A DNA stretch of 64,000 nt. It comes from Cyanobacteria bacterium SIG29 (GTDB lineage Bacteria > Cyanobacteriota > Vampirovibrionia > Gastranaerophilales > Gastranaerophilaceae). Where the stretch lies: contig SUTV01000001.1 of NCBI GenBank assembly GCA_015152515.1, forward strand, positions 310,001 to 374,000, given 5' to 3'. The stretch's first letter is position 1. Each line of letters opens with the position of its first letter. A model generated the notes under the pieces. That model was given only the letters and a program-made list of their open reading frames with translations. It was not told where the DNA came from and made no database searches. Positions 5,663-39,320 of this stretch are shown here, in pieces. Made by a program: the position numbers and the translations under genes.

Positions 5663-6475
5663 ATGAATATTTCACAAGTAAGTTTTGCAGGCTCTAGAAT
5701 AGACAATTCATATGCAATTAACGCAAGAAATACAAGAAACGAACTAAGAAGACGCAGTGGATTTGAAGATACAACTGATACTTTACAAATCAGTAAAAAA
5801 CCAAAAACCAAAAATCCATTTAAAACAGCTTTTGCTTTATTATTAGCTGCAAATATAGCAGTTGGTGCTCATTCTTGCTCATCTACTCCAGCTTTAACAA
5901 CAGAAGTTGAGGTTGAACCTGGAACTTCAATTGTTGAACTTGCAGAACGTTACGGTGTAGACCCAATAATTATAAAAAGTCAAAATAACATTGATGGCGA
6001 TATAATTCAAACAACAACTACAATTACAATTCCAGCAGATTTTGAAACTCCTGTTGAAGAAGAAATTAATGATTTACAAGAAAATTTATTTAAAAAGAAT
6101 ATAGATAACGAAGAAAGAAAAAAAATAGAAGCTGAAATATCTGAATTACTAGAATTACAACAAATACAATCAGAAATTGCTGTAGCATATACAGATGGTG
6201 ATTATGCGTATTTCACAATAACTTTACCTAATGATGAAACAGCAACACCAACACAACAAAAATATAGATATGGCATTAATGTTGAAGAATTCAAAGATAT
6301 TTTTGGCATTAAAGACGGCGTAATAAAAAAACATAATGATATGAGTTTCTTCTGGGATAGCGATGAAACTGGCGGTTTTATGAACTATACAGGCAACACA
6401 TTAAGCGATGGTGAAACAATTAAAGTTCCTGTTTCTGCTGTAAATCTTAAATATATTGAATCACTTAATGACTAG
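5663..6475 (+). CDS. Membrane-anchored LysM-domain protein with N-terminal VSFAG motif
   Basis: 270 residues, function unknown. It starts MNISQVSFAG, followed by a basic, probably disordered stretch, one hydrophobic segment (about 53-70) ending AHSCSS, then a LysM-like module (about 82-124, with PGTSIVELAERYGVD) that in other proteins binds peptidoglycan. A glutamate-rich helix (about 130-165) and an unrecognised C-terminal domain follow. Cys72 lies just after the membrane segment, but the lipobox is poor and far from the N-terminus. AAAGGG precedes the ATG. The stop overlaps that of tsaC by four bases (CTAG). An envelope role is inferred only. Confidence 0.75.
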   Translation: MNISQVSFAGSRIDNSYAINARNTRNELRRRSGFEDTTDTLQISKKPKTKNPFKTAFALLLAANIAVGAHSCSSTPALTTEVEVEPGTSIVELAERYGVDPIIIKSQNNIDGDIIQTTTTITIPADFETPVEEEINDLQENLFKKNIDNEERKKIEAEISELLELQQIQSEIAVAYTDGDYAYFTITLPNDETATPTQQKYRYGINVEEFKDIFGIKDGVIKKHNDMSFFWDSDETGGFMNYTGNTLSDGETIKVPVSAVNLKYIESLND

Positions 6476-10314: not shown

Positions 10315-11505
10315 ATGAATTCAACACCAAACTCTCAAAGAATACAAATAGGCTTTTTCGGAAGAATAAATGTTGGTAAATCAAGCGTAGTAAACGCTAT
10401 TACAAATCAAGATTTAGCCGTTGTTTCTGCTATTAAAGGAACAACAACTGACCCTGTATCAAAAGCAATGGAACTATTACCACTAGGTCCAGTTAATATT
10501 ATAGACACGGCAGGACTTGATGATACAGGCGAATTAGGTTTACTTAGAATAAACAAAACAAAAGAAGTATTAAATAAAGTTGATATTGCAATTTTAGTTG
10601 CTGATGCCCAAACTGGTTTAACAGAAATAGAAAATGAATTAATTAATACTTTTAAACAAAAAAATATTAATTACATAATAGTGTTCAACAAATCAGATTT
10701 AATACAAATCCCTCAAATTCACAATGAAAATGAAATATATGTTAGCGCACTAAAGAAAACTAATATATTTGAATTAAAAGAACTTATTGCTAAATTAAAC
10801 AATAAAAAAGAAAACGAAAATTTCTTAATTAAAGACATTATAAATAAAGATGACATAGTTATTTTAGTAACTCCAATTGATGAATCCGCACCAAAAGGTA
10901 GATTAATACTGCCTCAACAACAAGTTATAAGAGAACTTCTTGAAGTTGGTGCAATAACAACAATAATAAAAGAAACTCAATTAGAAGAAACTTTAAAAAA
11001 AATAACTCCAAAAGTCATAATTACTGACTCTCAAGTTTTTGGCAAAGTTAATAAAATAACACCACAAAATATACTTTTAACATCTTTTTCTATACTTTTT
11101 GCAAGATACAAAGGAATTTTAAAATACGCAGTAGAAGGCGTAAAAAACCTTGAAAATTTGAAAGATAACGATACTATTTTAATTTCAGAAGGTTGCACAC
11201 ACCATAGACAATGCAATGATATTGGAAGTGTAAAACTACCAAATTGGATTAAAAATCATACAAATAAAAACTTAAATTTTGAATTTACATCAGGAAATAC
11301 ATTCCCAAAAGATTTATCAAAATACGCAATGATTATCCATTGTGGCGCTTGTATGCTTAATGAAAAAGAAGTATTAAATCGATATGAAGAAGCGCATAAA
11401 CAAAATATTCCAATATCAAACTATGGTATAACAATTGCATATATACACAATATTTTGAAAAGAAGCATAGAAATCTTCCCTGAAATACATTCAAAATTAA
11501 ACTAA
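10315..11505 (+). CDS. hydF: [FeFe]-hydrogenase maturation GTPase HydF
   Basis: Scaffold GTPase that carries the 2Fe precursor of the hydrogenase H-cluster and delivers it to apo-HydA. 396 residues, normal length. The N-terminal GTPase domain shows GRINVGKSS (P-loop, residues 16-24), an extended switch region, DTAGLDD and FNKSD. The C-terminal cluster-binding domain has CTH at 294-296 and CGAC at 343-346, which fits the HydF pattern CxH-x(46-53)-CxxC exactly. hydE, hydG and the hydrogenase itself are not in this window. It implies fermentative H2 metabolism. Confidence 0.95.
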   Translation: MNSTPNSQRIQIGFFGRINVGKSSVVNAITNQDLAVVSAIKGTTTDPVSKAMELLPLGPVNIIDTAGLDDTGELGLLRINKTKEVLNKVDIAILVADAQTGLTEIENELINTFKQKNINYIIVFNKSDLIQIPQIHNENEIYVSALKKTNIFELKELIAKLNNKKENENFLIKDIINKDDIVILVTPIDESAPKGRLILPQQQVIRELLEVGAITTIIKETQLEETLKKITPKVIITDSQVFGKVNKITPQNILLTSFSILFARYKGILKYAVEGVKNLENLKDNDTILISEGCTHHRQCNDIGSVKLPNWIKNHTNKNLNFEFTSGNTFPKDLSKYAMIIHCGACMLNEKEVLNRYEEAHKQNIPISNYGITIAYIHNILKRSIEIFPEIHSKLN

Positions 11506-11566: not shown

Positions 11567-11582
11567 TTTTGTATATACAAAA
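11567..11582. promoter_or_regulatory. Perfect 16-bp palindrome upstream of the small-peptide genes
   Basis: TTTTGTATATACAAAA reads identically on both strands. It lies about 20 bases upstream of the presumed promoter of the two peptide genes and is a candidate binding site for a dimeric regulator. Confidence 0.5.
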
Positions 11583-11595
11583 TAAATACATCAAG

Positions 11596-11650
11596 TCAAT
11601 TTTGTTTCACATATATACTTTATATATATACGAGAGATAAACAAAATTGA
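11596..11650 (+). promoter_or_regulatory. Promoter of the peptide genes flanked by a 12-bp inverted repeat
   Basis: TTGTTT (11602-11607) and TATATA (11625-11630) are 17 bases apart and form a plausible promoter. A perfect 12-bp inverted repeat, TCAATTTTGTTT (11596-11607) and AAACAAAATTGA (11639-11650), flanks it: the left arm covers the -35 box, and the right arm covers the first transcribed bases and touches the GAGG ribosome site. It could be an operator pair, or in a longer transcript an RNA stem that hides the ribosome site. Confidence 0.5.
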
Positions 11651-11657
11651 GGATAAT

Positions 11658-11819
11658 ATGAGCAACGGAGTTAGCCTTTTTTCAAACATTTCATACAATC
11701 AAGACTATGCAAAAAATAGCAAAGCAGGTAGCTCTGATTATGATTGCGAATTTGATTTTTGCGTAGGCGCTGAAGATTGCGACATAGACACTAATTCAAC
11801 TCTTGATTGCAACGGTTAG
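11658..11819 (+). CDS. 53-residue cysteine-containing acidic peptide, unknown
   Basis: A short frame from ATG with a good GAGG ribosome site five bases upstream, beginning MSNGVSLFSN. The C-terminal half is acidic and has four cysteines (in YDCEFDFCVGAEDCD and TLDCNG). No signal peptide or membrane segment. It is followed 25 bases later by the GNG-repeat peptide with its own ribosome site, so the two are probably cotranscribed. The size, cysteines and tandem arrangement recall precursors of modified peptides, but no modifying enzyme is adjacent, so that function is not claimed. Confidence 0.55.
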   Translation: MSNGVSLFSNISYNQDYAKNSKAGSSDYDCEFDFCVGAEDCDIDTNSTLDCNG

Positions 11820-11844
11820 AAAGAAAAATAAAGAGGATAAAATA

Positions 11845-12057
11845 ATGAACGGCAACGGTTTTAACATAGAAGATTTTGATAAATTCTCAATAGATTTTGC
11901 AAATTTTGATTTTGCAGGCAACGGTTTTTCTGGAAATGGCATAGCTGGTAACGGTATCGGCGGAAATGGTTTTTCTGGAAACGGTATAGCTGGCAACGGC
12001 ATTACTGAATTTGGTGGCAACGGCGAAGAGCTATATGCTTGCCTTAATTTAGACTAA
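11845..12057 (+). CDS. 70-residue peptide of GNG pentad repeats, unknown
   Basis: Starts at the ATG at 11845, which has AGAGG seven to eight bases upstream; an in-frame longer start lacks a ribosome site. An N-terminal FDKFSIDFANFDF stretch is followed by six uninterrupted pentads of form GNG(F/I)(S/A/G/T) at residues 25-54, then an acidic tail ending YACLNLD with a single cysteine. Residues 25-38 and 40-53 are identical 14-mers whose codons differ only at silent positions, which supports selection on the protein. The pentads resemble, but do not match, the usual A(D/N)LxX pentapeptide repeat. A terminator follows. Confidence 0.6.
   Translation: MNGNGFNIEDFDKFSIDFANFDFAGNGFSGNGIAGNGIGGNGFSGNGIAGNGITEFGGNGEELYACLNLD
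11917..12006 (+). repeat. Two 45-base in-frame repeat units encoding GNG pentads
   Basis: Unit one (from 11917) and unit two (from 11962) encode the same 14 residues. I count seven base differences, all silent third-position changes. Confidence 0.75.
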
Positions 12058-12114
12058 TAATTTCAAAGGAAAAATAAATTTTATAAAGTAAATCTGACTA
12101 TTCGTATTAAATTT

Positions 12115-12144
12115 AATCCCAATCGCAAGATGGGATTTTTTTTT
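12115..12144 (+). terminator. Terminator after the peptide genes
   Basis: A seven-bp stem AATCCCA/TGGGATT (12115-12121 with 12131-12137) and a nine-base loop are followed by a T-run that reaches the stop codon of the convergent ABC permease. Confidence 0.7.
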
Positions 12145-12988
12145 AGCCTTTTACAGCACCTTCATTTTGACCTGACACAAAATATTTTTGCATAACAATA
12201 AAAAATATAATTATTGGAATAATAGAAATTATAGAACCTGCCGCAATATATCGCCAATTTGCACTAAACATTCCTTGCAGGTCATTAACTCCAACCGGAA
12301 GAGTATATAAAGATTTATTAGTCAAAACAATACTTGGCCATAAAAATTCACCCCAAGAACCAATAAAAGTAAAGATTGCTAAAACTGCTAAAGTTGGAGC
12401 TGTCATTGGAAGCAATATTTTTTTCCAGATATTAAACACACTGCAACCATCAACAAATGCAGCTTCTTCCATTTCTTTTGGAATAGTTAAAAAAGCTTGT
12501 CGCATTAAAAATATTCCAAATGCATTAACTGCAAATGGCAAGATTAATCCTAAATAACCACAAACCAATCCGTAAGAATCCACCAAGTGCAATTTCAAAA
12601 CTATTAAATATACAGGCAACATTATTGCTTGAAATGGAATCATAATTGTTGCCAAAACCAAACAAAAAATAAAATTACGACCTTTAAACTCCATTCTAGC
12701 CAATGGATATGCGGCTAATGAAGAAAAAATCAAATTTAAAATAACGGTAAATAACGCAACAACAAAACTATTTAAAAAATATAATAAAAATGGTATCTGC
12801 TTCCAAACGCCAGTAAAATTTTCCCAAGTAAATTGTTTAGGAATAAAATAAGGCGGATATTGAAAAATATTTTCATCAATACCTTTTAACGCTGTTGAAA
12901 TCAACCATATAAAAGGAAATAATGACAAAAAAGACATTATAATTAAAAAACTATGAACAGAAAAACCTTTTAAAAATTTTTTAATCAT
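12143..12988 (-). CDS. Sugar-type ABC transporter permease, MalG/UgpE family
   Basis: Inner-membrane subunit of a binding-protein-dependent carbohydrate importer. 281 residues, about six membrane segments. The permease EAA loop reads EEAAFVDGCSVFNIWKKILLP, which docks on the ATPase. It overlaps the other permease by four bases (ATGA type), so the two are translated together. No binding protein or ATPase gene is adjacent, so the importer must be completed by genes elsewhere, perhaps a shared MsmX-type ATPase. The substrate (sugar, oligosaccharide or glycerol phosphate) cannot be assigned. Confidence 0.88.
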   Translation of the reverse strand: MIKKFLKGFSVHSFLIIMSFLSLFPFIWLISTALKGIDENIFQYPPYFIPKQFTWENFTGVWKQIPFLLYFLNSFVVALFTVILNLIFSSLAAYPLARMEFKGRNFIFCLVLATIMIPFQAIMLPVYLIVLKLHLVDSYGLVCGYLGLILPFAVNAFGIFLMRQAFLTIPKEMEEAAFVDGCSVFNIWKKILLPMTAPTLAVLAIFTFIGSWGEFLWPSIVLTNKSLYTLPVGVNDLQGMFSANWRYIAAGSIISIIPIIIFFIVMQKYFVSGQNEGAVKG

Positions 12989-37456: not shown

Positions 37457-38362
37457 ATGAAAACAATTAAACCTAAAAAGTTACAAAAGGGTGATACAAT
37501 CGGAATTTTAGCTATATCAGGCAAAATTAACGATTTTAAAAATATAAAAAAAGCAAAAAACTTTTTTGAAGAACAAGGTTATAATGTAGTAATTTCAAAT
37601 ACTTGCAATTCTTCCCACCGATATATGGCTGGCACTAGCGATGATGATTGCGTAAATGAATTACACAATTTTTTTGAAAACAAAAATATTGACGCAATTG
37701 TATGTGCAAGAGGCGGATATGGAACATTAAGACTAATAAATAAAATTGATTGGAACATAATAAAATCAAATCCTAAAATTTTTGCAGGATACTCTGACAT
37801 AACTATTTTATTAAACATGATTTATAAAAAAACAGGCTTAATTTCCTTCCACAGCGCTATGCCAAATGGTGATTTTGCAAGTGTAATAGAAACTTATACA
37901 AAAGAAAGCTTTTTTAACTGTTTAACAGGAAACTTAAAAGAAATAAAATCTAATGGAAAAACATTTTTTGAAGGCGAAGCAAATGGTAAAATTTGGGGTG
38001 GAAATTTATCAACACTAGTTTCTCTTTGCGGAATAGATTTTATTCCTGATGAAGATTTAATTTTAATTTTAGAGGACTTAAATGAACCTGTTTATAAGAT
38101 AGACAAAATGATAACTCAATTATTTAACATTGAAAAAATTCGTCAAAATGTAAAAGGAATAGCTCTTGGCGAATTTAAAGATTGCAATAAAGAAGAACTT
38201 GATGAAATCATTAAAGAACTTGCAAACAAAATCAAAGTCCCTATTTTAGATGGATTTAAAATAACGCATAATAAAATCAAAGATACTATTCCAATTGGAA
38301 TTACAGCAAAATTAAATACAGAAAGTAAAACTCTAAAATTTATGGAAGATAGCTTACTTTAA
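37457..38362 (+). CDS. LD-carboxypeptidase, peptidase family S66
   Basis: Cleaves the L,D bond of peptidoglycan tetrapeptides during wall recycling; MccF-type members instead inactivate microcin C. 301 residues from the ATG at 37457 (a frame opening 21 codons earlier is unlikely). The nucleophile Ser113 lies in FAGYSDITILL; CARGGYGTLR and SFHSAMPNGDF are also typical of S66, and the C-terminal half carries the Glu and His of the Ser-Glu-His triad (LILILEDLNE, KITHNKIKDTIPIGI). It is divergent from dnaX, and its end overlaps the ADP-ribosyltransferase gene by 23 bases. Confidence 0.88.
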   Translation: MKTIKPKKLQKGDTIGILAISGKINDFKNIKKAKNFFEEQGYNVVISNTCNSSHRYMAGTSDDDCVNELHNFFENKNIDAIVCARGGYGTLRLINKIDWNIIKSNPKIFAGYSDITILLNMIYKKTGLISFHSAMPNGDFASVIETYTKESFFNCLTGNLKEIKSNGKTFFEGEANGKIWGGNLSTLVSLCGIDFIPDEDLILILEDLNEPVYKIDKMITQLFNIEKIRQNVKGIALGEFKDCNKEELDEIIKELANKIKVPILDGFKITHNKIKDTIPIGITAKLNTESKTLKFMEDSLL

Positions 38363-39242
38363 CAATATTTTTTTCATAATCAAAACCAGTTACTAAAAAG
38401 TGGCTATTTTTATCAAGCAAATATTCATCTTCAAACCATCGTTTTTGATCAATATTAAATAATTTTTCAACATCAATATATTTTGAGCCTTTTGGAAATG
38501 AAATTTCTAAAATAGGATTACCACATGAAAATCTTTGTGCAACTTCTAAACTTTTACTTGTTGAAGAAAAAGATTTATCTTGGTAAATACCACCTATCGT
38601 AGTCAAATTAGCGATATCTTCTTCTGAAAGATTTCTCTGTAAAGCTCTATATAAAACCATATTTTGAGTTGTTCTCATAGTAGAACTTGGAGTAGAAAAA
38701 ACTCTTTCTAATTCATCACACATTTCAAGCATTTCTTGATGCAAAGCACCATTATACATATGTTTACCTTCACGCAAATACATATGAAGTGCATCTGGAT
38801 GATATTTAGCATATTTCAATGCTTTCATATCTTCAGCAGAAAAATAATTTTTTAGTTCACCTGCTTCATCATAAACATGAACTGTATTTTCTTTAATATT
38901 TAAAACATAAATTGACGGTTCTTCACCATTTTGCCCATCATAACTAAAAACTTTTTTTACAGGTTGATATAAATCTTTAAACCCAACAACTGGTGTTTTT
39001 ATTTCATAAGCCGTTCCAAAATCTGTTAGATATCTTTCAAAAAGTTTTTCATCATCTTGCAATATGTTTAATAAAACTTTTTCTTGAACATTAATCGGTT
39101 TTTCAATTGGTTGCCCCCAAACCCTTTTATTTGAAGATTCAAAAACATCCTTGTCTAACCCCTTAAAGGACATATTACTCGCTTTTTTTAAAGGGGAAGA
39201 ATTTTTGATATTAAAAATATTACCAATAGACGAAATATTCAT
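38340..39242 (-). CDS. Probable ADP-ribosyltransferase (ADPRT exoenzyme type) with N-terminal NMSFKG motif
   Basis: 300 residues from the ATG at 39242; another ATG at 39257 adds five. The C-terminal third has the R-S-E ART pattern in order: VLYRAL (Arg199), a long helix, KSFSSTSKS (Ser-Thr-Ser at 227-229), then LEISFPKGSKYIDVE and EDEYLLDKNSHFLV, where E271 and E273 form the ExE pair of arginine-specific ARTs. It would transfer ADP-ribose from NAD+ to a protein. The N-terminus has no signal peptide but carries NMSFKG near residue 24. No immunity gene is evident. Target and delivery route are unknown; it could be an effector or a self-regulator. Confidence 0.75.
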   Translation of the reverse strand: MNISSIGNIFNIKNSSPLKKASNMSFKGLDKDVFESSNKRVWGQPIEKPINVQEKVLLNILQDDEKLFERYLTDFGTAYEIKTPVVGFKDLYQPVKKVFSYDGQNGEEPSIYVLNIKENTVHVYDEAGELKNYFSAEDMKALKYAKYHPDALHMYLREGKHMYNGALHQEMLEMCDELERVFSTPSSTMRTTQNMVLYRALQRNLSEEDIANLTTIGGIYQDKSFSSTSKSLEVAQRFSCGNPILEISFPKGSKYIDVEKLFNIDQKRWFEDEYLLDKNSHFLVTGFDYEKNIVKVSYLP

Positions 39243-39320
39243 AACACCATAAAACATCTCAAACTCAAAAATTGCCTATAACTTTATATTTTGGCTGATT
39301 ATCAAAAACGAAAAATAATG

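Follow-up and report, generated by a model that had tools for sequence, protein, structure and literature searches.

GNG-repeat peptides of Gastranaerophilales as possible RiPP-like precursors associated with B12-type radical SAM enzymes

A 70-residue peptide built on GNG pentads is encoded in the 64,000-nucleotide stretch of Gastranaerophilales DNA analysed here (the window) and belongs to a family of short, mostly acidic peptides with members in 15 Gastranaerophilales genomes. The genes of this family display reduced non-silent change, all 15 genomes also encode a B12-type radical SAM enzyme, and peptide and enzyme genes stand side by side in two lineages of the enzyme. Furthermore, the window copy lies behind a promoter element common to the genes of a companion protein family (P1) in many relatives. 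As the best explanation of these data, with a probability of roughly 0.45, we propose that the peptide is a RiPP-like precursor, whose GNG(I/L/F)x core could be modified by a B12-type radical SAM enzyme with its gene at another place in the genome.

Results

The window is part of contig C13 of a draft genome (G000) of 1.54 Mb with a completeness of 82.5%. The following features were located around the two small genes:

10315..11505, plus strand: HydF, GTPase for [FeFe]-hydrogenase maturation (540 bits for TIGR03918, cut-off 325.55)
11596..11607, no strand: left arm of an exact 12-bp inverted repeat, overlapping CAATT
11597..11626, plus strand: bipartite promoter-like element CAATT-N12-TATACTTTATATA, recurring upstream of relatives' peptides and P1 genes
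11639..11650, no strand: right arm of the inverted repeat, exact partner of the left arm
11658..11819, plus strand: ORF1, 53 aa, four Cys in its acidic C-terminal half; an orphan
11845..12057, plus strand: ORF2, peptide of 70 aa with GNG pentads, in the family of 15 genomes
12115..12144, plus strand: intrinsic terminator-like stem with T-run (7-bp stem 12115-12121 / 12131-12137, 9-nt loop)
12143..12988, minus strand: sugar-type ABC permease by eye, read from the sequence; convergent neighbour outside the system

HydF is likewise a neighbour outside the system and marks the syntenic locus in genome G002, which has the same gene order. The original prediction had described an operon of two tiny peptides behind dyad elements, and this description is accurate in part: both short frames (53 and 70 aa) are present with one ribosome site GAGGATAA in front of each, the four cysteines lie in the acidic tail of ORF1, and the six uninterrupted GNG(F/I)x pentads can be counted in the translation of ORF2, which carries two further GNG motifs. 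The 12-bp inverted repeat is exact, and its right arm was not seen by eye in the upstream sequences of relatives. Reading of the sequence also recovered the terminator as a 7-bp stem with a T-run 3' of ORF2; it is missing from the list of our scan, which allowed loops of up to 8 nt.

Other proposed elements fared less well. The 16-bp palindrome at 11567-11582 is indeed perfect, but was rejected as a regulatory site, since the window holds two such palindromes in total, compared to 0, 4, 5, 6 and 7 in five first-order Markov sequences, i.e., a number at chance level. A second exact copy is absent from the genome, where 27 sites match with up to two mismatches (16 for the reversed control). The suggested promoter TTGTTT-17-TATATA could not be upheld, as hexamers of the usual type are about as frequent in the window as in shuffles (20 against an expectation of 18.6); the conserved element is instead CAATT-N12-TATACTTTATATA, whose second half begins 44 nt 5' of the ORF1 start. 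The view of ORF1 as one half of a conserved peptide pair found no support either: among 98 genomes no convincing homologue was obtained (best other match with an E-value of 0.02 and an internal stop), and comparison with the 15 GNG peptides by local score against shuffles gave no similarity surviving 15 tests. Two candidate relationships of ORF1 were discarded, namely to the peptide of G002 (shared locus, DFDFC/DVDYC), where a local score of 26 was equalled or exceeded by a fraction of 0.66 of the shuffles, and to the peptide of G023, the best of the 15 comparisons at 0.004, which was lost after 15 tests.

Elsewhere in the window, positions 38340-39257 (minus strand) encode a 305-aa protein with an ADP-ribosyltransferase exoenzyme domain (PF03496, E-value 2e-10) and an N-terminal SFKG stretch. 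By eye, SF(K/A/S)G was seen near the N terminus of unrelated proteins, i.e., at window positions 5663-6475 (plus strand) and 38340-39257 (minus strand) as well as at loci L109 and L137, and this stretch is possibly a sorting signal of the order.

Homologues of ORF2 in related genomes, a search suggested along with the original prediction, were collected in several steps, with matches accepted by eye in draft genomes, some of whose flanks stop at contig ends. With ORF2 as single query, 8 of 41 genomes of the genus matched at E<=1, of which G000, G002, G011, G028 and G013 were accepted and G003, G039 and G015 dropped before counting. A profile of five peptides (A1), run at E<=0.1 on 383 genomes of the order, gave matches in 28, of which 13 were accepted. 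The 15 genomes dropped at this level include eight matches within open frames of at least 288 aa, three (G122, G345, G274) which were read as repeats of other kinds, and four (G006, G010, G116, G272) which were dropped unread. A profile of twelve peptides (A2), including the G004 peptide previously found by reading enzyme neighbourhoods, matched 16 of 383 family genomes at E<=0.05, and 14 were accepted; G265 and G359, whose matches lie in frames of 277 aa and 351 aa, were dropped unread, and a second match in G052 was dropped as lying inside a 485-aa frame. The 15th genome, G067, comes from another taxonomic family, around which the family search covered two genomes. A class-level match in G455 (family f8) had no GNG peptide in the surrounding ORF list.

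The resulting peptides are 43-94 aa long with 2-8 GNG motifs (two or three in 10 of the 15) and net charges from 0 to -18. All 15 consist of a repeat core with mostly acidic flanks and a putative leader/core boundary. Over the whole family, 53 GNG triplets, written in 17 different nucleotide spellings, follow Ser in 29 cases and have I, L, F, M or V as the next residue in 47. At the syntenic G002 locus, where HydF, peptide and permease stand in the order of the window, the peptide is a single 94-aa gene, and ORF1 is absent from the ORF list. In genus g55, a 46-aa member occupies one place in four genomes, representing four species, between a chromate-transporter-like gene pair and a gene of 367-368 aa. 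These homologues, together with a promoter element common to relatives, corroborate ORF2 as a genuine small-peptide gene.

Five of the peptides and ORF1 had no match in NCBIfam, including its leader families, and in Pfam only Lamprin for ORF2 (15.9 bits, cut-off 34); the Pfam pentapeptide model gave no match for the five members at E-values up to 1. ORF1, ORF2 and two relatives had no match in PHROGs, and no relative was found in viral contigs. Frames with a few GNGIA units in Paenibacillus (L023) and Clostridia (L024) had no acidic flanks by eye and were taken as repeat noise, and no frame with GNGIA units passed the same filter in Nonomuraea (L020). At locus L022 (3956-5216), two tandem alphaproteobacterial frames carry N(A/G)(L/I)xx pentad arrays and signal-peptide-like starts by eye. 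Like ORF2, they have pentads of the Asn-small-hydrophobic type; they differ in the signal-peptide-like start, greater length and other phylum, and their likeness to ORF2 is probably confined to the repeat.

The proposed dN/dS comparison of homologues yielded dN below dS in all ten peptide pairs (Nei-Gojobori; estimates without significance test, two pairs being saturated at silent sites). For the closest pair, G190/G383, dN was 0.06 and dS 0.96, followed by e.g., 0.25 and 0.94 for G021/G008, 0.40 and 0.89 for G011/G028, and 0.37 and 0.67 for G383/G244. The outcomes named beforehand as speaking against the original prediction did not occur for ORF2, which has homologues and whose family shows dN below dS in these ten pairs. 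The original argument for selection had been drawn from the two 14-residue units of ORF2: here, the count is exact, as 7 of 42 bases differ, every one at a silent third position, whereas the conclusion drawn from it is partly circular because the units were chosen as identical peptides. The dN/dS of orthologues is the sounder ground for selection, and it is very likely that the peptide is produced and under selection.

A scan of the relatives' neighbouring genes for radical SAM genes had been recommended as well, and such genes are present. A gene of about 605 aa adjoins the peptide in six of the 15 genomes, i.e., G013, G023, G067, G021, G004 and G008 (the G008 copy is cut by the contig end). 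Radical SAM domain PF04055 scored above cut-off in the three enzymes scanned for it, and the best NCBIfam model for six scanned enzymes was TIGR03975 (RiPP maturation radical SAM C-methyltransferase) with 121-138 bits, less than half of its cut-off of 281.85, which none of the six reached. This match spans residues 176-532 of the G067 enzyme. The nearest solved chain is OxsB, to which the enzyme profile aligns from position 192, and all 18 members of alignment A3 contain CYWxKCxFC, giving the three-Cys motif CX4CX2C. Of two enzymes scanned for B12-binding domain PF02310, one reached 23.3 bits (cut-off 32.1) and the other had no match.

In a tree of 71 enzymes, made by a quick method and leaving out the cut G008 copy, the peptide-adjacent enzymes stand at two places, one with G067 (of the other family), G021 and G004, and one with G013 and G023; a third place is taken by the additional enzyme that the G067 and G004 loci each carry. 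The window genome has ten enzyme genes at E<=1e-30, i.e., one on contig C8, one on C6 and eight in tandem on C5, and none on the window contig C13 at this threshold. Genome G011 has only more distant enzymes, with identities of 39% and less, which counts against the best explanation.

Several enzyme loci show additional peculiarities. The eight tandem B12-type radical SAM genes of the window genome (L107:7231-19365 and L108:659-6245; G000:C5, about 102-118 kb) are followed by a YcaO-domain gene (PF02624) and, about 3 kb further on, by a radical SAM/SPASM gene and a gene with a SPASM-like C-terminal part, and this array looks like an unusual peptide-modification island. A short radical SAM protein of about 325 aa occurs near some enzyme loci, and on contig C7 of G020 (L134:3581-17139) a radical SAM gene block is repeated almost identically about 10.7 kb apart.

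In a census of 383 family genomes, 49 were positive for the enzyme at E<=1e-80, among them all 14 peptide genomes of this sample (p=5e-14, relatedness uncorrected). Counting two dropped matches as exceptions gave p=5e-12 and omitting G004 p=5e-13, both equally uncorrected for relatedness. Inside the genus, the enzyme was found in 9 of 9 peptide genomes against 14 of 32 others (p=0.002, relatedness uncorrected), and counting by genus gave 3 of 3 among 5 of 41 (p=0.0009). As G067 also has the enzyme, all 15 peptide genomes do. An earlier, chosen set of 17 genomes, with controls that were not random, had the enzyme in 6 of 6 genomes with and 0 of 11 without the peptide. Conversely, 35 of the 383 genomes have the enzyme and no detected GNG peptide; the peptide therefore cannot be its only substrate.

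Adjacency was evaluated leaving out G004, which had come from the reading of enzyme neighbourhoods: 5 of 14 genomes compare with 0.18 expected, corresponding to p=3e-7 if the genomes are independent and 0.013 if the two enzyme lineages are taken as two events. In the other nine of the 15 genomes, including that of the window, the enzyme matches lie on other contigs than the peptide, a further point against the best explanation. At the G052 locus (L066:6128-8422), the gene directly before the GNG peptide encodes an EF-hand protein of 671 aa whose middle part is long and charged, and a B12-type radical SAM gene was not seen within the 17 kb read.

Enzymes of the main clade (48 of 71 tree rows) usually adjoin a protein of 245-543 aa and a helical-looking protein of about 105-140 aa; for distant enzymes, e.g., the C5 array, such companions are absent from the ORF lists read. 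Iterated profile searches sorted 40 of the larger companions into family P1 and four into family P2. A P2 gene comes after the peptide in G021, G008, G004 and G067, a P1 gene before it in G013 and G023. A pattern search detected EF-hand-like loops in 25 of 40 P1 and all four P2, compared with none of 57 other neighbours. Half of the P1 (20 of 40) and one of four P2 contain a single GNG, so that this motif is not confined to the peptide; adjacent pentads occur in none. The four P2 companions (L064:7713-9287, L065:5536-6651, L068:8232-9449, L123:9369-10376) contain a Met/Gly-rich stretch with Cys, and at least two of them carry CGMG, which may be compared with the core CPACGMG reported for MelA1 (PMC12636315).

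The promoter element CAATT-N12-TATACTTTATATA was derived from what lies upstream of the window operon and of the g55 peptides, and then scored on other genes. It precedes the GNG peptides of G190, G383 and G244 (18/18), G362 (17) and G002 (16, with a spacing of 11). At least 16 of 18 positions are matched before 16 of 40 P1 genes, compared with one of 490 further genes in these loci, this sole background gene lying two genes from a P1; five of the 16 P1 genes come from the close relatives G020, G005, G001, G036 and G017 and count as about one. In G002, G362, G383 and G244, the element reaches at least 16 before both the peptide and a P1 gene. The two P1 genes of the window genome have weak forms with 14 and 13 of 18, again counting against the best explanation.

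Among 25 distinct ATACTTTATATA sites, from loci partly chosen for this motif, CAATT stands at one fixed spacing in 15, and no site has it at a different spacing within 40 nt. In the window genome, TATACTTTATATA alone is rarer than its reversed control (24 versus 44 sites with up to one mismatch), and 7 of the 24 have CAATT at the set spacing and two at another within 44 nt; here, only the pairing of TATACTTTATATA with CAATT stands out. Five peptides (G021, G004, G028, G008, G011) have instead a sigma-28-like TAAAGT-N14/15-[CT]CGATA just upstream, a form which at spacings of 13-16 occurs at 12 sites in the sequence examined, five of them those before these peptides. The remaining four score lower for both elements, with 15 (G067), 14 (G052) and 12 (G013 and G023) for the first. 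The element CAATT-N12-[TA]ATACTTTATATA or a near form was also seen before other genes of the window genome (L210, L211, L216, L222 and L220), including those for 270-409-aa proteins of unknown kind and a 52-54-aa frame; these genes form a candidate regulon.

Discussion

According to our best explanation, the bipartite promoter would drive the ORF1-ORF2 operon along with the remaining components of the system, ORF2 would be translated, and its acidic flanks would be recognised by an enzyme which, with SAM and cobalamin, could modify carbon centres in the GNG(I/L/F)x core. Methyl groups at the pentads appear most plausible, or otherwise another radical change, and the window peptide would be handled in trans by an enzyme encoded elsewhere in the genome. 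We infer substrate status, methylation, trans handling and any cleavage or export; upon reading the neighbours, no peptidase or exporter was noticed beside the window peptide. A wider formulation, which we regard as possible though doubtful, is an undescribed RiPP-like system in non-photosynthetic cyanobacteria of the gut, made up of scattered acidic GNG peptides, CX4CX2C enzymes acting in trans, an EF-hand-like companion and a small helical protein, co-switched via the bipartite or the sigma-28-like promoter.

To our knowledge, P1, P2 and the protein of about 115 aa are not part of clusters of the TIGR03975 or PoyB/PoyC kind. These RiPP C-methyltransferases (TIGR03975 being rSAM_ocin_1) are among the closest parallels, with TIGR03975 as best model, the alignment to B12-dependent OxsB and the small peptide gene adjacent in some genomes, while the score below half of the cut-off sets the present enzymes apart. 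The motifs also differ, as a review gives Cx7Cx2C for PoyB/PoyC and describes PoyC as modifying a valine of a polytheonamide-derived peptide (PMC5682303), compared to CX4CX2C here. In logic, many precursors served by one enzyme in trans, the proposal resembles the prochlorosins (ProcM), for which a solitary promiscuous enzyme is reported (PMC10783134). Enzyme class and peptides are different, and a Nif11-type leader was not found here with NCBIfam and Pfam. Loci of prochlorosin precursors are scattered in the genome. Reported from the same wider lineage is MelA1/MelH of a Melainabacteria genome, a RiPP pair with a multinuclear iron enzyme (PMC12636315), which is alike in its RiPP-type peptide and differs in its enzyme class and its core CPACGMG; a term search of the main text of this paper gave no "radical SAM". 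In titles and opening abstracts of the literature on this lineage (RiPP, radical SAM, gene clusters), no such system was among the matches listed, and "GNG repeat" gave none.

The main rival to this explanation involves the companions. P1 or P2 could themselves be the substrate, with the GNG peptide as an unmodified, co-regulated small protein, e.g., a binding partner in a surface or export system. The 40 P1 and four P2 stand beside main-clade enzymes mostly in genomes without a GNG peptide, P2 follows the peptide in four genomes and P1 precedes it in two, and half of the P1 proteins (20/40) have a single GNG; the promoter common to the peptide and P1, as well as part of the neighbourhood, are accounted for equally well. 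We nonetheless consider this rather unlikely, given that P1 and P2 are without adjacent GNG pentads, that a short repeat core between acidic segments is precursor-like, and that the stretches read around the peptide contain no P1 or P2 in nine of 15 genomes. The sigma-28-like site before five peptides, out of 12 such sites, could alternatively indicate a secreted or regulatory member of a motility-type regulon, which would be exported without a signal peptide and linked to the enzyme by regulation alone. Proteins resembling FliS, FlaG, FliD and FliP/Q/R, putative assignments made by eye like that of the sigma-28 sites, lie near some enzyme loci; as adjacency to the enzyme in two lineages would be left unexplained, this reading seems distinctly improbable.

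Explanations dispensing with the enzyme altogether carry still less weight. A pentad-repeat scaffold in the manner of beta-helical pentapeptide-repeat proteins, one of the options of the original prediction, would suit the longer members, in which Asn and a hydrophobic residue recur with a strict period of five residues. Two or three motifs are, however, not enough to build a coil of the known pentapeptide fold, and 10 of 15 members have only this number, an argument by which the scaffold was set aside; in addition, five members had no Pfam pentapeptide match, and few repeats in most members distinguish the family from pentapeptide-repeat proteins despite the common period, making this option very improbable. 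That ORF2 is a chance frame or low-complexity artefact, as its small size, repetitiveness and missing database family might suggest, is scarcely credible and already contradicted by the orthologue data: orthologues lie at the same place in four g55 species, dN/dS is low in the closest pair, and members are preceded by ribosome-site-like sequences and a conserved promoter.

If the proposal of a RiPP-like precursor modified by a B12-type radical SAM enzyme is true, radical-modified peptides of this class are a product of a gut lineage that is mostly uncultured, and genome mining based on clusters can miss such peptides because the precursor often stands alone. The common promoter offers a route to further members, and in G021 and G004 peptide and enzyme form pairs of a size that could be tested directly in a heterologous host.
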